DNA of 21,869 nt, taken from a virus. This document shows positions 2,654 through 21,869 of the stretch, piece after piece. The notes beneath the pieces were generated by a model. That model saw nothing but the letters and a program-made list of their open reading frames with translations. It did not search any database and was not told where the DNA came from. Position 1 is the first letter of the stretch. Every line of letters begins with the position of its first letter. Location of the stretch: IMG/VR virus record IMGVR_UViG_3300007352_000055, positions 1 to 21,869 of that record; one strand, given 5' to 3'. The position numbers and the translations under genes are program-made.

Positions 2654-2838
2654 TTAATTTCTCCGTATTTAGCACAATAAGTCATGGGCATAGGCACAAA
2701 CACCTTCCCTATTAATACTGGCTGAATTCTAGTTGAATACTCTAAGCATGGTGGTGCCTCTGGTAGAAGTAAATTAACTAAATAGCCAATAGAGCATAGC
2801 AATAAGATTAATGAGAGATAGCTCATGAATGTTTTCAT
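2650..2838 (-). CDS. Small single-span membrane protein (62 aa)
   Basis: I chose the internal ATG at 2838 rather than the upstream ATG at 2865. It forms an ATGA overlap with the polymerase stop and has GAAGGACTTG as SD. The product starts MKTFMSYLSLILLLCSIGYL: residues about 5-26 form one hydrophobic span, followed by a roughly 35-residue tail with two cysteines and several prolines. This is a signal-anchor or short signal-peptide layout, placing the tail in the periplasm or outside. Function unknown. Confidence 0.65.
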   Translation of the reverse strand: MKTFMSYLSLILLLCSIGYLVNLLLPEAPPCLEYSTRIQPVLIGKVFVPMPMTYCAKYGEIK

Positions 2839-5357
2839 AAAATCAAGTCCTTCATCTCCATCCAATTAGTATCACTCCACGCAGTTTCACAAGGTACAAC
2901 TAATTCAACATCACGATACAACGTGCAAAGATCATAGCGTAGTGGCCGCTCAAGGTGGCGCTTAACTACTCTGGCCGCTTCCATTACGCGCTCTCTAGGC
3001 ACTTCCATAAGTAATCCGTCGTGTTGCTCTGCCAGAAATCTAACCCAGGGAGTTTCATCGAGAACACGGCGAATTGTGAATTTAGTATGATCGCTCACGG
3101 TGCTTTGCGGAATATGCGCAATGGCTTCTTTATAGAGTGACTCATCTAGATAGCCGAAGAACATGCGCTTTCTTCCAAATGGAGTTACAAGAACTCTACT
3201 ACGCTTAATCGCATCAATAACTCCGAGATGAAATACCGAGCGTATGTTAGGATTAACCTCATGAAATTTCTCCATCATTCGCTTACACTCTGGAAAGCTC
3301 ATGTGAGTCATTTGGGCTAAGCGGCCAGGCCCCATGTTATAATTTCCAGCGTGGCGTATTCTCTTACCAAGATCATAGTATGCAATACCGATCTTGGGAA
3401 CTGTAGGCGAGTCTTTAGTAATTATTTTTGGGTCGATACCAAAGATTGCGCCTGCCGTTTTCGCATGTACTTTCGGCTTGCGATCAAAAGATTCCAGAAG
3501 TTCCCAATCTTCCGCGAGTACCGCAACGTGTCTTGCTTCCGCTTGCGAACCATCGGCTTCGAGAAATACATAGCCAGGACTAGGTACAAACATACTTCGC
3601 AAGTCACTAGCAATAGAAACGTCTTCAAAGTCATCGAATAGTTCTTCATCGACGTGAAACCCATGCTTTGATATGGTCTGAAGAGAGCGGCCTAGTTTCT
3701 TAGCTTTGAAGCCTTTTCCTTCGCGGACTAGAATTTCGTCGATGGTTTTACTAAAGCTACTTCGACCCGTTTCCGTTCCCGCAAGATTAGAACTACCACG
3801 TAAGCGGCCATCAGGATGAAGCGGCGTATTAATATACTCCAAGACCTTCCGTAATTTCCGGCAAATGATGACGCGGCCAATTACTTTAAGCCCAAGTACA
3901 CCTTGCTTATTCTCCATCCCATGATTAATCACTAGGTCATCGAGAGTATCTTTATCAGTCTTGTAAGATTTTCTTCCAGTTTCGATGTCTGTTTTACGGC
4001 GAATTGGAAAGCCCAATTGTTCGTATACGAGGATTCCGACTTGCTGAGATGAAGAAGGGTTAAAATCGGGATCATTAACGAGAGTGCGAAGAGTCTTAAG
4101 ATTACTTTCGTACAGATCGGTATACTTAGAAAGAAGGCGCTCTTTTTGCTCATCATCGCGGCGAATTCCTATTTCATCAATTCTCTTGTAAATGGGGATT
4201 AACGGAACGATCTCTTCATGATATAACTTCTTGAGATTCTCATTCTCAGGTTCTTCTAGCTCAGCTAGTTGCTCAGAATAAACTTTATGAGCAGCAATTG
4301 AGTCCATTGCGTTATAAAGATAAAGGCGATCACGAGTATGAGCCTTGGGATTAAATTCTTTTCCCTCATCTTTATAATATCCGATGGGGGTGTAGATGGA
4401 TGTGTAGAAGTCCAAACCTTTAGGCAACTCCGGATACAAGCAATGCCCAAGTAGCATAGTGTCACCGAAAACGTTGCGCACGTTAAAACCATAACGATTA
4501 AGTATAATCCAGTCATATTTTATGTTCTGATTCGTCTTTGGAATTGGATGGTTTAGCAGCTTAGCAACAGTCTGCCAGATTAGGGCCATTTCAGCTTTAG
4601 GTATTTTCGAGTCATAAAGGGGAATACTCACACCTTCATAACCGTCGAAGCTAAAGCTAATACAAGTGATTAGGCCGCCGTAGGTTTCAATATCGAAGGC
4701 TAGAAACTTAGCGTCTACGATACTTCGCTCAATAAATTTAATGAGCTTGTAGGCATCTTTACAAACCCACCGCACGCCATACTCTTTAACTTCGCGGCGA
4801 ACGTCTTTACTTTCGACTATCTTCTTATAGTCAAGCGTAACGTAGCTTCGGGCCGCGTTATCGGAGTAGAGCAACTGCGGCCCAATGGTGGGAATTACGC
4901 GAACGGGATAATCGAATTCTTTTTGCCAATCACTTCGTAGTGGAAGCTCACTACCTCGAAAACAGTAAACCCAATGCTTGCGGCCACGAGGTTTACTAAT
5001 CGAGTGAATATAAGGATAGACTGCGCCTAATGCTACGTCATCAAGCGGAACGATAATATTAGGCTGAACTTCCTTTAACTCCTGGAGAAGCTCATACTCA
5101 TAAGCCTGCGTATTTACCGCACCTACTGCGGCCTTGAGTTTCTTGGTATTAGTCGCGGAATACGTTAGCTTTTCCTTAATGAGCAGACTCCGATAGCAAT
5201 TCTTCAGAGTTAGCTTATAAGGTGAAAGCATCGAATTCAGAGTATTCTCTGCGCTACCGCTGAGAGCCAATCCTGTATTGAGATCAGCCGCAAGCGGATA
5301 GCCCGCAAGAAAGAATATCTCTGCGCGGCCATAGCCATGAGATTCGACTTTATTCAT
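2835..5357 (-). CDS. Family A DNA polymerase with N-terminal UDG-like domain
   Basis: This 840-residue protein is the likely replicative polymerase. Residues 12-185 look like a family 4 uracil-DNA glycosylase domain: GYPLAAD (19-25) where GEAPGxxE is expected, then GLALSGSAENTL, a NIIVPLDD strand, and IGPQLL (158-163) where the HPS motif would be. The catalytic His is absent, so it is probably a degenerate DNA-binding domain. The 3'-5' exonuclease follows: DIE (222-224), NQNIKYD (276-282) and YNAMD (348-352), so proofreading is likely intact. The polymerase has motif A ADGSQAEAR (601-609), motif B around KRIRHAGNYNMGPG (665-678) and motif C EQHDG (777-781). Motif B has His where E. coli Pol I has the O-helix Lys. 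The UDG4-exo-pol order is known for the SPO1 polymerase. No strong SD; it overlaps the upstream stop by 8 bases. Confidence 0.93.
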   Translation of the reverse strand: MNKVESHGYGRAEIFFLAGYPLAADLNTGLALSGSAENTLNSMLSPYKLTLKNCYRSLLIKEKLTYSATNTKKLKAAVGAVNTQAYEYELLQELKEVQPNIIVPLDDVALGAVYPYIHSISKPRGRKHWVYCFRGSELPLRSDWQKEFDYPVRVIPTIGPQLLYSDNAARSYVTLDYKKIVESKDVRREVKEYGVRWVCKDAYKLIKFIERSIVDAKFLAFDIETYGGLITCISFSFDGYEGVSIPLYDSKIPKAEMALIWQTVAKLLNHPIPKTNQNIKYDWIILNRYGFNVRNVFGDTMLLGHCLYPELPKGLDFYTSIYTPIGYYKDEGKEFNPKAHTRDRLYLYNAMDSIAAHKVYSEQLAELEEPENENLKKLYHEEIVPLIPIYKRIDEIGIRRDDEQKERLLSKYTDLYESNLKTLRTLVNDPDFNPSSSQQVGILVYEQLGFPIRRKTDIETGRKSYKTDKDTLDDLVINHGMENKQGVLGLKVIGRVIICRKLRKVLEYINTPLHPDGRLRGSSNLAGTETGRSSFSKTIDEILVREGKGFKAKKLGRSLQTISKHGFHVDEELFDDFEDVSIASDLRSMFVPSPGYVFLEADGSQAEARHVAVLAEDWELLESFDRKPKVHAKTAGAIFGIDPKIITKDSPTVPKIGIAYYDLGKRIRHAGNYNMGPGRLAQMTHMSFPECKRMMEKFHEVNPNIRSVFHLGVIDAIKRSRVLVTPFGRKRMFFGYLDESLYKEAIAHIPQSTVSDHTKFTIRRVLDETPWVRFLAEQHDGLLMEVPRERVMEAARVVKRHLERPLRYDLCTLYRDVELVVPCETAWSDTNWMEMKDLIL

Positions 5358-16711: not shown

Positions 16712-16930
16712 AAGTTTGGCGCAAGCAAACCCGATCACATCGGGAGATTCGGTAAGTACGACAGCGCCTCAATTTTTAATACTCCCAGGGAATTAGCTTT
16801 TCATACTCTCATACTCAGTTAATTCCCTGAGAGTTAACTTTAACTTTGGTGAAGCCAAAAAATAGGTCCATCGGGATTAACTTCCCTTTGGACCTTTTTA
16901 GTTTTTAACTCGTGCCAGTGGCGAAGCCAC
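16712..16930. terminator. Hairpin-rich bidirectional terminator region
   Basis: Five stem-loops lie between convergent genes. They are CCCGAT/ATCGGG (16730-16744), a 14-position stem with one mismatch (16782-16795 with 16820-16833), TTTGG/CCAAA (16845-16859), AGGTCCA/TGGACCT (16864-16870 with 16889-16895) and AGTGGC/GCCACT (16917-16931). The fourth has an inner GGGA/TCCC pairing, a T-run (TTTTTAGTTTTT) on the plus strand and TATTTTTT on the minus strand. It is the best intrinsic terminator in the window and can serve both directions. Confidence 0.75.
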
Positions 16931-17674
16931 TTAGACCACTCCAAGTTTAATTAGTCGATCTAGCACGCGCTTGTATTCGATCTCTGGATCAGTTGTTTCC
17001 ACGCGATCTAGAACGAAATCGAATTCATGGATTCTGGCTTTTTCAAACTCATAGAAGCGATAGAATCCCGCCCAACGGCCCTGCGTTCCGTTGATATAGA
17101 TTGTTCGCGCCAGCGGCCCTACCAAACGATCTCCGAAGGCTCTCATTGACTGATTGCTTAGGCAAATGTGCGTGATTGACGTGGCATACGCGGGTAGTGG
17201 CACGCGAACATGACAGATACCAGCAGAGTGCATTTGAAGCCCATTCCCGTAGCAGACCTCAAGTGTGTACTTGCGCCCCTGCTTTTTGCAAAGGTCAGTA
17301 AACGCAAGTATCGCACCACCACGAATACATTGGATTTCGGTGCTATTGGCGTCCCCACTGAGATTAATCCCAATCTTAATTGGTGCTGGACGAAGAAATC
17401 GCTTCATGCGAAAACACTCCGCTTCGCCTTCAAGTGCATCATCGATATCCACGCGGTAACCTTCAGTGGCGCGAGTCTCCATCCGAATCTTGTCTTTCGA
17501 GATTAAGACTCGTGCGATCTTTTCGCGCCAACGTTGGACCTGTTCTAATGCGCTAGCTTCGATGGGAAGGTCTGTTAGCTTGATTCCAGTAGCCTCAAAA
17601 CTCGCGTAGCGCTTCAGTGGGCCGGATGCGAGTAGCTGCTTGTCATGAAATGGAATTCGCTTAGTAACGCGCAT
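16931..17674 (-). CDS. VWA-like partner protein of the AAA+ ATPase (247 aa)
   Basis: It follows the MoxR-type gene with a 14-base overlap, the usual arrangement for ATPase/VWA pairs. From residue 98 the sequence runs PIKIGINLSGDANST, then IRGGAILAFTDLCKKQGRKYTLEVCYGNG. This is the strand-loop-helix-strand order of a von Willebrand A domain, with the metal site DxSxS read here as NLSGD. With Asn in place of the first Asp, metal binding is doubtful. The N-terminal 95 residues are basic and helical. Known pairs (CobS/CobT, CbbQ/CbbO, RavA/ViaA) use the VWA protein to direct the ATPase to a target. The target is unknown here; the VWA assignment is inferred. Confidence 0.5.
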   Translation of the reverse strand: MRVTKRIPFHDKQLLASGPLKRYASFEATGIKLTDLPIEASALEQVQRWREKIARVLISKDKIRMETRATEGYRVDIDDALEGEAECFRMKRFLRPAPIKIGINLSGDANSTEIQCIRGGAILAFTDLCKKQGRKYTLEVCYGNGLQMHSAGICHVRVPLPAYATSITHICLSNQSMRAFGDRLVGPLARTIYINGTQGRWAGFYRFYEFEKARIHEFDFVLDRVETTDPEIEYKRVLDRLIKLGVV

Positions 17675-18947
17675 AGTTGCTCATGACCCTTTCGACGTCT
17701 TTCTTTACTTGCTCGATAACGGAAGGTCGTAGACCTTCGTAAAGTGCTCCGTTGCAGATATCTCGCATGATATCGAGTGTGAGTCGCTCTTCGTAAGCGA
17801 GGATTTTGGCACCCGCATAGGCGAACCGTGGCGAAGCCGCAATGGGCAATTCTGCACGTTCAACGATGGGACGAATCTCATGCACAAAATTAATCCATGC
17901 TTCGCCCCTAGGACCGGGACAAATGTCCGCAACGATTTTGCGCTCTAGTTCAGTATCGTATTTGAACTCCATGTAATAGAGACGGTTTCGGAAAGCCCCA
18001 CCCGCATCTTGCCGTTCGGGGTACCTTTCATCGTCGCCATGCAATGTGCTGTTGTCTGCGAATACCAGATAGCAGTGTGGGTGCTTTGTGATACGTGAAC
18101 CATCAGGGAAGCGTATTTCAACGTTCGCAAGTGCAGCGTTGAGAATGTTCAAAAAGCTACCTGCTGCGTTGCCGCACTCGTCGAAGAGAACAATTCCACC
18201 GTTAGCCCAAATCTCAAAAAAGTGAGCAGGGTTAAACCGTGGTTGCCCTGGTTGCGCAATGGGATTGAGTGTTCCCAGAATCTCGCTGCGAAGCATGTCG
18301 AGTGAACCAGGGATAAGCAGGAAGTCTAGCTCCGCTTCTTTCGCAATTATTTGCATGAGCGTAGTCTTTCCAGCACCGGGAGCACCATAGAGAAAAGGGT
18401 AAAGTCCCTGCCTCATGCGCTTAATGATGGTTGGCGCAAGGTAGTGCATCCCGGAGGTGCTCACTTTTTCAAGTGGTGACGGTGGAAGAGACTTTGCAGT
18501 GTGGGAAACCGATGGCTGCACCTGTACCTGTTCTTGGGGTTTCGGTGAAGCTACTTTCAACAAAGCCGCGATTCGGTCAACGATCTCTTTAGCTTCGTAA
18601 AGATTCATGTTGGTTTCGGTGCGAATCTCTTTGATAGCTTCGATCTTGCGTCCTTCGGTGATTAGCTTCGTTGCACGCGCGATACAAGCGCTCGAAGGTT
18701 GGATGATGGTGGGAACAGTTTGTGGAGGAGGAAAACCCACTGTAGGCGCTTTTGGCGTCATTGGCGAAGGATTCGGCGTAGGTTGTGAAACCTGCCCTAA
18801 CTTTTCCAATCGGCACTTCACGTGAAAGTGAATGCCCTTGGAGTGCGTGTCGTAAGACCATTGGCCCGCCGGCGTACCATAAAGATTCACGCCACAGTAG
18901 GCGCAAGCACGATGTATATGGTACATTTTAGACGAGATATTGGGCAT
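17661..18947 (-). CDS. MoxR/CobS-like AAA+ ATPase with zinc finger and L7/L12-like domain
   Basis: The start at 18947 (MPNISSKMYHIHRACAYCG) is set by CGGAGCAACA; an ATG at 19016 lacks an SD. The product has 428 residues. A zinc finger comes first: C15, C18, His at 40 and 42, and C45. A Pro-rich linker follows. Residues about 89-131 (ATKLITEGRKIEAIKEIR, then NLYEAKEIVDRI) look like the ribosomal L7/L12 C-terminal fold. The AAA+ core has Walker A GAPGAGKTT (188-196), Walker B IVLFDE (252-257), sensor-1 ADNST (about N299) and FRNR (319-322) as arginine finger. The family remodels protein complexes together with VWA partners. A minus-strand promoter lies upstream, so the cassette is controlled separately. 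Confidence 0.8.
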   Translation of the reverse strand: MPNISSKMYHIHRACAYCGVNLYGTPAGQWSYDTHSKGIHFHVKCRLEKLGQVSQPTPNPSPMTPKAPTVGFPPPQTVPTIIQPSSACIARATKLITEGRKIEAIKEIRTETNMNLYEAKEIVDRIAALLKVASPKPQEQVQVQPSVSHTAKSLPPSPLEKVSTSGMHYLAPTIIKRMRQGLYPFLYGAPGAGKTTLMQIIAKEAELDFLLIPGSLDMLRSEILGTLNPIAQPGQPRFNPAHFFEIWANGGIVLFDECGNAAGSFLNILNAALANVEIRFPDGSRITKHPHCYLVFADNSTLHGDDERYPERQDAGGAFRNRLYYMEFKYDTELERKIVADICPGPRGEAWINFVHEIRPIVERAELPIAASPRFAYAGAKILAYEERLTLDIMRDICNGALYEGLRPSVIEQVKKDVERVMSNYARY

Positions 18948-19012: not shown

Positions 19013-19041
19013 CCATCTTAATATGCCCCTCCGCTTGTCAA
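19013..19041 (-). promoter_or_regulatory. Possible promoter of the AAA+/VWA cassette
   Basis: On the minus strand there is a perfect TTGACA (19041-19036), with TAAGAT at 15 bases and no better -10 at 16-17. The predicted start lies about 60 bases before the chosen AAA+ start codon. The short spacer makes it weak or activator-dependent. Confidence 0.35.
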
Positions 19042-19385: not shown

Positions 19386-19415
19386 ATGATAGCACTAGAG
19401 ATATAGTGAGGTCAA
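19386..19415 (-). promoter_or_regulatory. Leftward promoter of the divergent pair
   Basis: Minus strand: TTGACC (19415-19410), an 18-base spacer, TATCAT (19391-19386), with TGC before the -10. Its -35 box lies within a GTCAAG-CCC-CTTGAC dyad (19411-19425) that also covers the -35 of the rightward promoter, so one bound protein could block both. Confidence 0.55.
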
Positions 19416-19420
19416 GCCCC

Positions 19421-19449
19421 TTGACATAGGCGCAAGCCTATGCTATGAT
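19421..19449 (+). promoter_or_regulatory. Rightward promoter of the packaging genes with spacer dyad
   Basis: TTGACA (19421-19426), a 17-base spacer, and TATGAT (19444-19449) with TGC before the -10: a near-perfect promoter. The spacer contains the exact dyad CATAGGC-GCAA-GCCTATG (19425-19442), which starts inside the -35 box. A repressor or activator dimer site is a natural reading. Confidence 0.8.
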
Positions 19450-20822: not shown

Positions 20823-21869
20823 ATGGAAGTAAATATCGAGTTTCGCAATCGTGAACAAGAACTCTTTTTCTGGACACGAACGCGAAATAATTGCTTTTCT
20901 GGTGGTTTTGGCAACGGCAAGAGTTATGCTGGCTGTCTTCGAGCTTTTATAATGCTCAGCACCTTCCCTAAATATAGGATGGTGATTGCAAGACAAGTTC
21001 TGAAAGACCTTATTGAGACGACGCAGAAGACGTTTTTTAAGATTTGCCCGCCGTCTCTAATTAAAAGCCACTCTAAGCAGAGTAACATTACTGAGCTTGT
21101 AAATGGATCAACAATCCTCTGGATGCACTTGGACGCTTTCGATGAGCAATCCATGCGAGGATTGGAAATTAATAGCGCTCTCCTCGACCAAGCAGAAGAG
21201 ATTGATGAAGGCATCTATCTTATCCTCGATTCCCGAATTGGACGATGGGATCAAGCGCAAGTTCCAGAAGAATACCTTGAAGGAAATCCTTATTGGCCGC
21301 GTGACGACTATAATCGGCCCCGCGTGCCCAACTTCATCGATATTCTTTGTAACCCCGATACCACTTTTCACTGGATTTACAGGCGTTATCACCCCGATTC
21401 CATCGAACGAATCGAAGACCATTTCTATATTGAAGGAGCTACCGACGAATCACTAAACGACCCGCATACAATTGCGCAGATGAAAATGCGCGATCCTGAA
21501 TGGGTCCAAAAGTATTTCTACGGTAAATGGGGCTTTTCTGGTGCCCAAGTCCATTCGATCCATAATGAATCAATACTCGAATGGAATCCAGATTTTATTG
21601 CTGAGCTTAGGCGTAATTCTGCTCTTTATAGGATTCTCGATCATGGTGATGCTTGCCCAACCTGTTGTCTCTGGGCCGCAGCCTATAAGGGAGTTTACAT
21701 TTTCTATCGGGAGTATTACTCTCTTAACGATGTTATATCTTCTCATCGGCAGAACATTGATGCGCTAAGCACGTATCGAAGCGTAGGCGGCCAAGATATC
21801 CAAGAGTATTACTCAGGAAATTATGCCGATCCTTCGATCTTTCGTAAAGCCTCCCAAAAGGATGGCGGA
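20823..21869 (+). CDS. terL: Terminase large subunit, 3' end cut by the window
   Basis: An open frame of 349 codons runs from ATG 20823 (MEVNIEFRNREQELFFW) to the right edge without a stop. The ATPase half has Walker A GGFGNGKS (27-34), the coupling-type motif of TerL, and Walker B ALLDQAEEI (119-127), where a Glu pair follows the hydrophobic strand. The nuclease half begins at RILDHGD (270-276, D273 as the first RNase H-fold acid). A second acidic motif reads ADPS (335-338). The enzyme cuts concatemeric DNA and drives it into the prohead. The final catalytic region is missing because the contig ends. No SD is visible before the start. Confidence 0.93.
   Translation, partial: MEVNIEFRNREQELFFWTRTRNNCFSGGFGNGKSYAGCLRAFIMLSTFPKYRMVIARQVLKDLIETTQKTFFKICPPSLIKSHSKQSNITELVNGSTILWMHLDAFDEQSMRGLEINSALLDQAEEIDEGIYLILDSRIGRWDQAQVPEEYLEGNPYWPRDDYNRPRVPNFIDILCNPDTTFHWIYRRYHPDSIERIEDHFYIEGATDESLNDPHTIAQMKMRDPEWVQKYFYGKWGFSGAQVHSIHNESILEWNPDFIAELRRNSALYRILDHGDACPTCCLWAAAYKGVYIFYREYYSLNDVISSHRQNIDALSTYRSVGGQDIQEYYSGNYADPSIFRKASQKDGG

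Follow-up and report, generated by a model that had tools for sequence, protein, structure and literature searches.

What does a virus do with an AAA+ ATPase whose gene overlaps that of a small companion protein and whose N-terminus joins a putative zinc knuckle to a stretch resembling ribosomal protein L7/L12? The window that we analysed is an entire virus record of 21,869 bases, possibly a fragment. From its sequence alone, an original prediction had seen a MoxR-type ATPase with a VWA partner, acting perhaps on translation factors or ribosomes, perhaps on phage assembly. The elements at the locus are the following.

16864-16899, no strand assigned: terminator-like inverted repeat AGGTCCA...TGGACCT with flanking A and T runs (read from the sequence)
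16931-17674, minus strand: partner protein, 247 aa, divergent member of DUF7192/phrog_1909 (ORF, family profile, AlphaFold2 model)
17661-17674, minus strand: overlap of the ATPase and partner genes, 14 nt (sequence)
17661-18947, minus strand: MoxR/CbbQ-NorQ-type AAA+ ATPase, 428 aa (ORF, AAA_5, phrog_249, AlphaFold2 model)
19386-19449, both strands: overlapping divergent sigma-70-like promoter pair (consensus scan only)

The partner ATG precedes the stop codon of the ATPase gene, and because the genes overlap by 14 nt, coupled translation of the two is suggested. An alternative start, an upstream ATG at 19016, would lengthen the ATPase to 451 aa. To the left of the cassette, also on the minus strand, lie genes for a DNA polymerase, a primase, an SNF2 helicase, Sak4 and a PD-(D/E)XK exonuclease. 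The polymerase (DNA polymerase A, 2835-5357, minus strand) has its exonuclease and polymerase domains after an N-terminal part; residues 11-119 weakly match the uracil-DNA glycosylase superfamily (E 0.0073), with a motif that looks degenerate. The packaging genes, from 19558 onward with the terminase at 20823, are on the plus strand and diverge from the cassette, so that the predicted opposite transcription is correct. Promoters of its own, with which the cassette had also been credited, are not demonstrated, because the region holds 10 sigma-70-like sites against 5.3 +/- 2.9 in shuffles, which is within two standard deviations. Within the listed pair, the minus-strand site (19415-19386) points to the cassette and the plus-strand site (19421-19449) to the packaging genes; the latter matches 11 of 12 consensus bases. 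The inverted repeat lies between convergent genes, the cassette on one side and two small genes on the other. It was read by eye and is absent from the output of the scan, whose loop limit was 8 nt. No RNA elements or tRNAs were found in the window.

The ATPase and its partner

The following parts of the ATPase, all on the minus strand, are needed for the argument.

18177-18197, minus strand: Walker B IVLFDE, about residues 251-257 (D256 and E257 conserved)
18228-18275, minus strand: beta-hairpin of the helix-2 insert, residues about 225-240 (AlphaFold2 strands 226-228 and 237-239; alignment)
18363-18386, minus strand: Walker A GAPGAGKT, residues 188-195 (invariant positions in the alignment)
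18546-18653, minus strand: L7/L12-like two-helix hairpin, residues 99-134 (PF00542; AlphaFold2 helices)
18813-18905, minus strand: putative zinc knuckle CxxC...HxxC, residues 15-45 (sequence; comparable heads in relatives)

The ATPase is a MoxR AAA+ protein of the CbbQ/NorQ type with its catalytic motifs intact, and the class named in the original prediction is thus borne out. It matches Pfam AAA_5 (E 1.8e-10) and phrog_249 (E 1.3e-30). Every catalytic position that is invariant in an alignment of 58 sequences is kept (G188, G193, K194, D256, E257, N299, R322 and R374), and Walker A, Walker B, sensor 1, the Arg finger and sensor 2 are present as in the MoxR/CbbQ-NorQ clade. Its AlphaFold2 model (mean pLDDT 82.9) is closest in fold to CbbQ2 (Z 22.4 over 251 residues) and NorQ (Z 22.1); dynein, McrB and Rea1 score clearly lower (Z 15-17). 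When PDB sequences are ranked by a profile of the ATPase family, Midasin, CobS, CbbQ and NorQ come first, and phmmer with the ATPase itself finds Midasin/Rea1 as the best PDB match (E 2.5e-15). Both hairpins typical of the MoxR clade, that of the helix-2 insert and the pre-sensor-1 hairpin, appear in the model. The helix-2 insert is longer than in relatives, and the motif GRxLL/IxxxxT, a feature of this insert in NorQ (PMC13036017), is absent from it: residues 225-245 read GTLNPIAQPGQPRFNPAHFFE. Exact-peptide scans found no close relatives of the ATPase in IMG/VR or in GTDB genomes, and a DNA-pattern search for FDECGNA gave 13 loci, none of which has this ATPase.

Two parts of the partner deserve attention.

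17351-17365, minus strand: degenerate MIDAS motif N-L-S-G-D, residues 104-108, in place of D-x-S-x-S (sequence)
17384-17491, minus strand: predicted VWA finger, residues about 62-97 (position between helix 40-61 and strand 99-104)

The match of the partner to Pfam DUF7192 (PF23822) is under Pfam's cut-off (E 0.0064). A profile of 80 DUF7192 relatives from which the window was excluded recovers it at E 2.9e-9; the score is 29.8 bits, and none of the shuffled copies listed exceeds 6.0. On this profile evidence the partner is a short, divergent member of DUF7192/phrog_1909, a family entered as of unknown function in both Pfam and PHROGs. A literature search found no paper naming DUF7192, tblastn of the partner against the phage collection gave no match, and an exact-peptide scan of IMG/VR gave no close relatives.

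What kind of protein might DUF7192 be? The AlphaFold2 model of the partner (pLDDT 76.6, pTM 0.71) has NorD VWA chains as its top PDB matches in Foldseek (probability 0.90-0.99). In VIA it matches NorD and the MIDAS domains of Rea1/MDN1 at Z 6.5-7.7 over 146-194 residues (NorD VWA 7.7, Rea1/MDN1 up to 7.5), values under 8, which can mean only a common arrangement. Generic VWA domains score lower, at 6.4 or less over about 113-130 residues. Against a viral library the model finds DUF7192 proteins first and then phage CobT/VWFA proteins (E down to 5.6e-5). A sequence-profile search of the PDB with DUF7192 found no VWA. The DUF7192 family, again without the window, can be aligned to a CobT-like VWA protein encoded by Gordonia phage GordDuk1, and the finger, the MIDAS and a conserved Lys then fall in register. 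The alignment scores 24.8, the highest of 100 shuffles 21.2; hhalign probabilities stay low (1-8%). Even the vWF proteins of GordDuk1 and another Gordonia phage, Jumbo, match no VWA model in Pfam, so that Pfam's silence is uninformative there. We suggest that DUF7192 is probably a mini-VWA, because the predicted structure of the partner most resembles the VWA domain of NorD and that of Midasin and because the pair is widespread. A partner unlike VWA had been named in advance as grounds for giving up the prediction; the predicted structure, with NorD VWA at probability 0.99 and Z 7.7, speaks for VWA.

The range of NorD that is matched, 382-638, has the NorD finger (403-448) at a place equivalent to that of the predicted finger in the partner. 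Residues 62-97 belong to the best conserved region of the partner, and a conserved stretch of the finger region, G..lD..L.Ge..c, has an aligned counterpart in GordDuk1, in its CobT-like VWA protein. The metal site is another matter. The MIDAS motif DxSxS is found in many VWA domains, not in all. In the partner N104 occupies its first position, as had been predicted, but this is a trait of the family and no peculiarity of the protein: Asn is the commonest residue there (35 of 80 members), Asp is found in 17 of the 80, and a full D-x-S/T-x-S/T is kept in only 2. With Asn prevailing and the motif so rarely complete, the family as a whole has, judging from the alignment, largely given up the MIDAS. 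Two residues in the C-terminal half of DUF7192, an Arg and a Lys, are nearly invariant; R178 of the partner falls in the Arg column, and the Lys position cannot be aligned.

A gene pair common in phages

We retrieved 76 IMG/VR loci through the ATPase alone. DUF7192 stands beside it in 70 of them, always on the same strand and downstream in 66, mostly overlapping it or within tens of nucleotides. The window, with its overlap, shows the adjacency to a phrog_249-type ATPase that is expected of DUF7192. The pair is likewise present in 11 of 12 phage records examined, which include Herelleviridae, crAss-like phages, a mycobacteriophage and phages of Gordonia, Rhizobium, Acinetobacter, Listeria, Lactobacillus, Enterococcus and Tunturiibacter. 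Searching with the ATPase also gave 28 bacterial contigs, and 26 of them, mostly Bacteroidota, have the pair too. Failure of the genes to co-occur in other phages was to have counted against the prediction; they do co-occur. The same counts dispose of the suggestion that the pair is novel: it is uncharacterised but very common, and the cassette in the window is a divergent variant of it. The reading as an AAA+/VWA remodelling pair is well supported. MoxR-vWA pairs of a related kind, in which the VWA protein is longer, are already known from jumbo phages and from viruses of archaea (PMC7824862, PMC7911831, PMC8651126).

The nearest known counterparts are the phrog_249 and DUF7192 pairs of Staphylococcus phage Stab23, Acinetobacter phage AM24 and Tunturi_4, in which the same two families are adjacent on one strand, with the same AAA core and a similar partner. 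A CxxC head on the ATPase is common to the window, Tunturi_4 and mycobacteriophages. The window ATPase differs from its relatives in these three phages in sequence (about 20-26% identity), in its longer helix-2 insert and in the L12-like hairpin; its partner differs from their DUF7192 proteins in being shorter and below Pfam's cut-off.

Some loci depart from the usual arrangement. The order is reversed, with DUF7192 before the ATPase, in L010 (1810-2658), L019, L034, L054 and L067. In Mycoplasma and Malacoplasma MAGs (L120, L121 and L123-L127) the ATPase has a divergent DUF7192-like neighbour, fully readable only if TGA is Trp (code 4). In Gordonia phages GordDuk1 (L134, 3945-8547) and Jumbo (L135, 3942-8853) the place of DUF7192 after a related ATPase is taken by a CobT-like vWF protein of roughly 870 aa with a full DVSGS motif. 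A protein of phrog_6361, to which no function is assigned, is encoded among the close neighbours in 8 loci, and just upstream of the ATPase in L014 (2698-3351). It is possible that it is a third component of the pair; it was not found among the window proteins scanned.

Is the pair then a viral version of CobS-CobT, a metal chelatase that serves to make cobalamin? The PHROG label 'porphyrin biosynthesis' and annotations of viral CobST point that way. CobS is a relative of the ATPase family by profile and is among its closest solved relatives, a CobT-like VWA protein fills the partner slot in related Gordonia phages, where it is annotated as cobalamin biosynthesis, and the borrowing of host CobN by viral CobST has been argued for (PMC8651126). 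However, members of DUF7192 are mostly of about 250-300 aa and lack the long N-terminal and acidic parts of CobT as well as DxSxS. With 247 aa and no DxSxS, the window partner has neither the length nor the metal site of CobT. The window ATPase is not matched by the CobS equivalog model, and the AM24 relative scores far under the cut-off of that model. No CobN or cobalamin gene could be recognised in the ten window proteins that were scanned, in a record of 21.9 kb that may be a fragment, and the pair is also present in mycoplasma MAGs. We regard the chelatase explanation as extremely improbable.

The gene neighbourhood bears on another suggestion, that the pair is a virion-assembly chaperone which remodels head, neck or tail proteins. 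Such roles have been given to p618/p892 of Acidianus two-tailed virus and to the MoxR-vWA pairs of jumbo phages (PMC7824862). Some loci adjoin head morphogenesis, portal or terminase genes, and the window cassette adjoins the packaging operon. Yet replication genes are neighbours as well: functional enrichment gave mixed replication and head genes and no single module. The window cassette runs opposite to the packaging genes, and no structural partner gene was seen travelling with the pair. A role in virion assembly is, in our estimate, unlikely.

A possible remodelling machine and its targets

Quite probably, in our view, the two genes specify a MoxR-VWA machine of the phage that remodels proteins in the manner of NorQ-NorD. 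This estimate covers the machine itself, not recognition by the heads or the type of target. The likeness to NorQ-NorD and CbbQ-CbbO lies in the AAA fold (Z 22), in the helix-2-insert and pre-sensor-1 hairpins and in a VWA partner with a predicted finger. The differences are that the window partner lacks the N-terminal target domain and a complete MIDAS, and that the ATPase has an N-terminal head and is missing the GRxLL motif. This missing motif, VWA matches of the partner at Z under 8 and a PDB profile search without VWA all count against a NorQ-like machine. Midasin/Rea1 is also similar, as the best phmmer match of the ATPase in the PDB and through its MIDAS domain, a top fold match of the partner, but it is one giant polypeptide that contains six AAA modules, whereas the cassette encodes two separate proteins.

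In NorQD one VWA partner plugs the hexameric ring, with its finger through the pore to the helix-2 inserts; the C-terminus of the VWA protein docks at the other end of the ring, and ATP turnover rotates the plug (PMC13036017, PMC9976466). By analogy, six copies of the window ATPase would assemble into a ring like those of CbbQ and NorQ. The partner finger (about residues 62-97) would enter the pore and touch the helix-2 inserts, and the partner C-terminus would dock on the ring. Hydrolysis of ATP would then turn or pull the plug, putting strain on a bound target.

How would such a machine find its target? MIDAS mutants of NorD still bind NorQ but fail in target maturation (PMC9976466). The partner would be little more than a VWA domain that has lost the metal site which engages the target in NorD. 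Since it lacks both this site and the N-terminal domain of NorD, the choice of target has probably moved to the ATPase heads, if the machine is built as we propose. Recognition would fall to small heads at the ATPase N-terminus, which may be exchangeable between ATPases: the zinc knuckle and the L12-like hairpin in the window, and CxxC knuckles, SAP domains or Rho_N domains in relatives. We hold this view of recognition tentatively, at somewhat less than even chances; of the 69 N-terminal heads that were scanned, only 5 have a SAP (three) or a Rho_N domain (two). These domains and the zinc knuckle hint at a nucleic-acid-associated target or a phage nucleoprotein, which is possible but rather doubtful.

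The zinc finger of the original prediction survives as a putative knuckle, C15-x2-C18...H42-x2-C45, placed at low confidence in the AlphaFold2 model (pLDDT under 50). It has counterparts of varying pattern in Tunturi_4, mycobacteriophage Wyatt2, Gordonia phage Kudefre and about nine IMG/VR relatives. The L7/L12 module stands in part. Residues 99-134 match Ribosomal_L12 (PF00542) at E 7.3e-6, scoring 26.7 bits where the cut-off is 25.9; in the genome search the score is 29.4 bits. The match spans only positions 10-45 of the 67 in the profile, and the model has helices at 101-112 and 116-133, preceded by an extra one at 86-97 (pLDDT about 90-95), and no strands. Because of this partial span and the lack of modelled strands, the similarity is, on the predicted structure, that of a helical hairpin and not of the whole L7/L12 C-terminal alpha/beta domain of about 67 residues. 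A failure of residues 89-131 to fold like L12 was the remaining ground named in advance for giving up the prediction, and on this point the prediction holds only by half. The window's own protein is the only one with such a match among 58 full ATPases and 69 N-terminal heads.

An action on translation had been proposed on the strength of this likeness. L12 itself makes its contacts with factors through these two helices. By mimicking them, the ATPase might recruit EF-Tu, EF-G, IF2 or the ribosome to the machine. The PF00542 match is above its cut-off, and the bare hairpin of 47 aa aligns to L12 chains of solved ribosomes (best E 0.02). On the other hand, only half of the L12 domain is there, the hairpin is in no other ATPase checked, and the same stretch matches the non-ribosomal families phrog_5819, phrog_26927 and PRK06771 and, weakly, a hypothetical protein of phage Pumpernickel. 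Since non-ribosomal families share it, the hairpin is, as far as sequence goes, not a mark of ribosomal function. An action on ribosomes or translation factors is unsupported beyond the helical hairpin, and we think a translational target very unlikely. To the fuller version, in which a stripped-down NorQD-like motor with a plug lacking its target site seizes translational GTPases by a head of knuckle and L12 hairpin, we give very little credence. The original prediction read the protein class well and over-read the link to the ribosome.

The useful outcome concerns DUF7192. A family to which no function is assigned, and which occurs in Herelleviridae, crAss-like phages, mycobacteriophages and many uncultured phages, gains a likely and testable identity: a VWA plug without a MIDAS, made for a ring of the NorQ type. 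If this is true, a very common phage pair labelled 'porphyrin biosynthesis' would be a motor for remodelling in general rather than a vitamin gene, and the variable heads of its ATPases would be a route to finding its targets.
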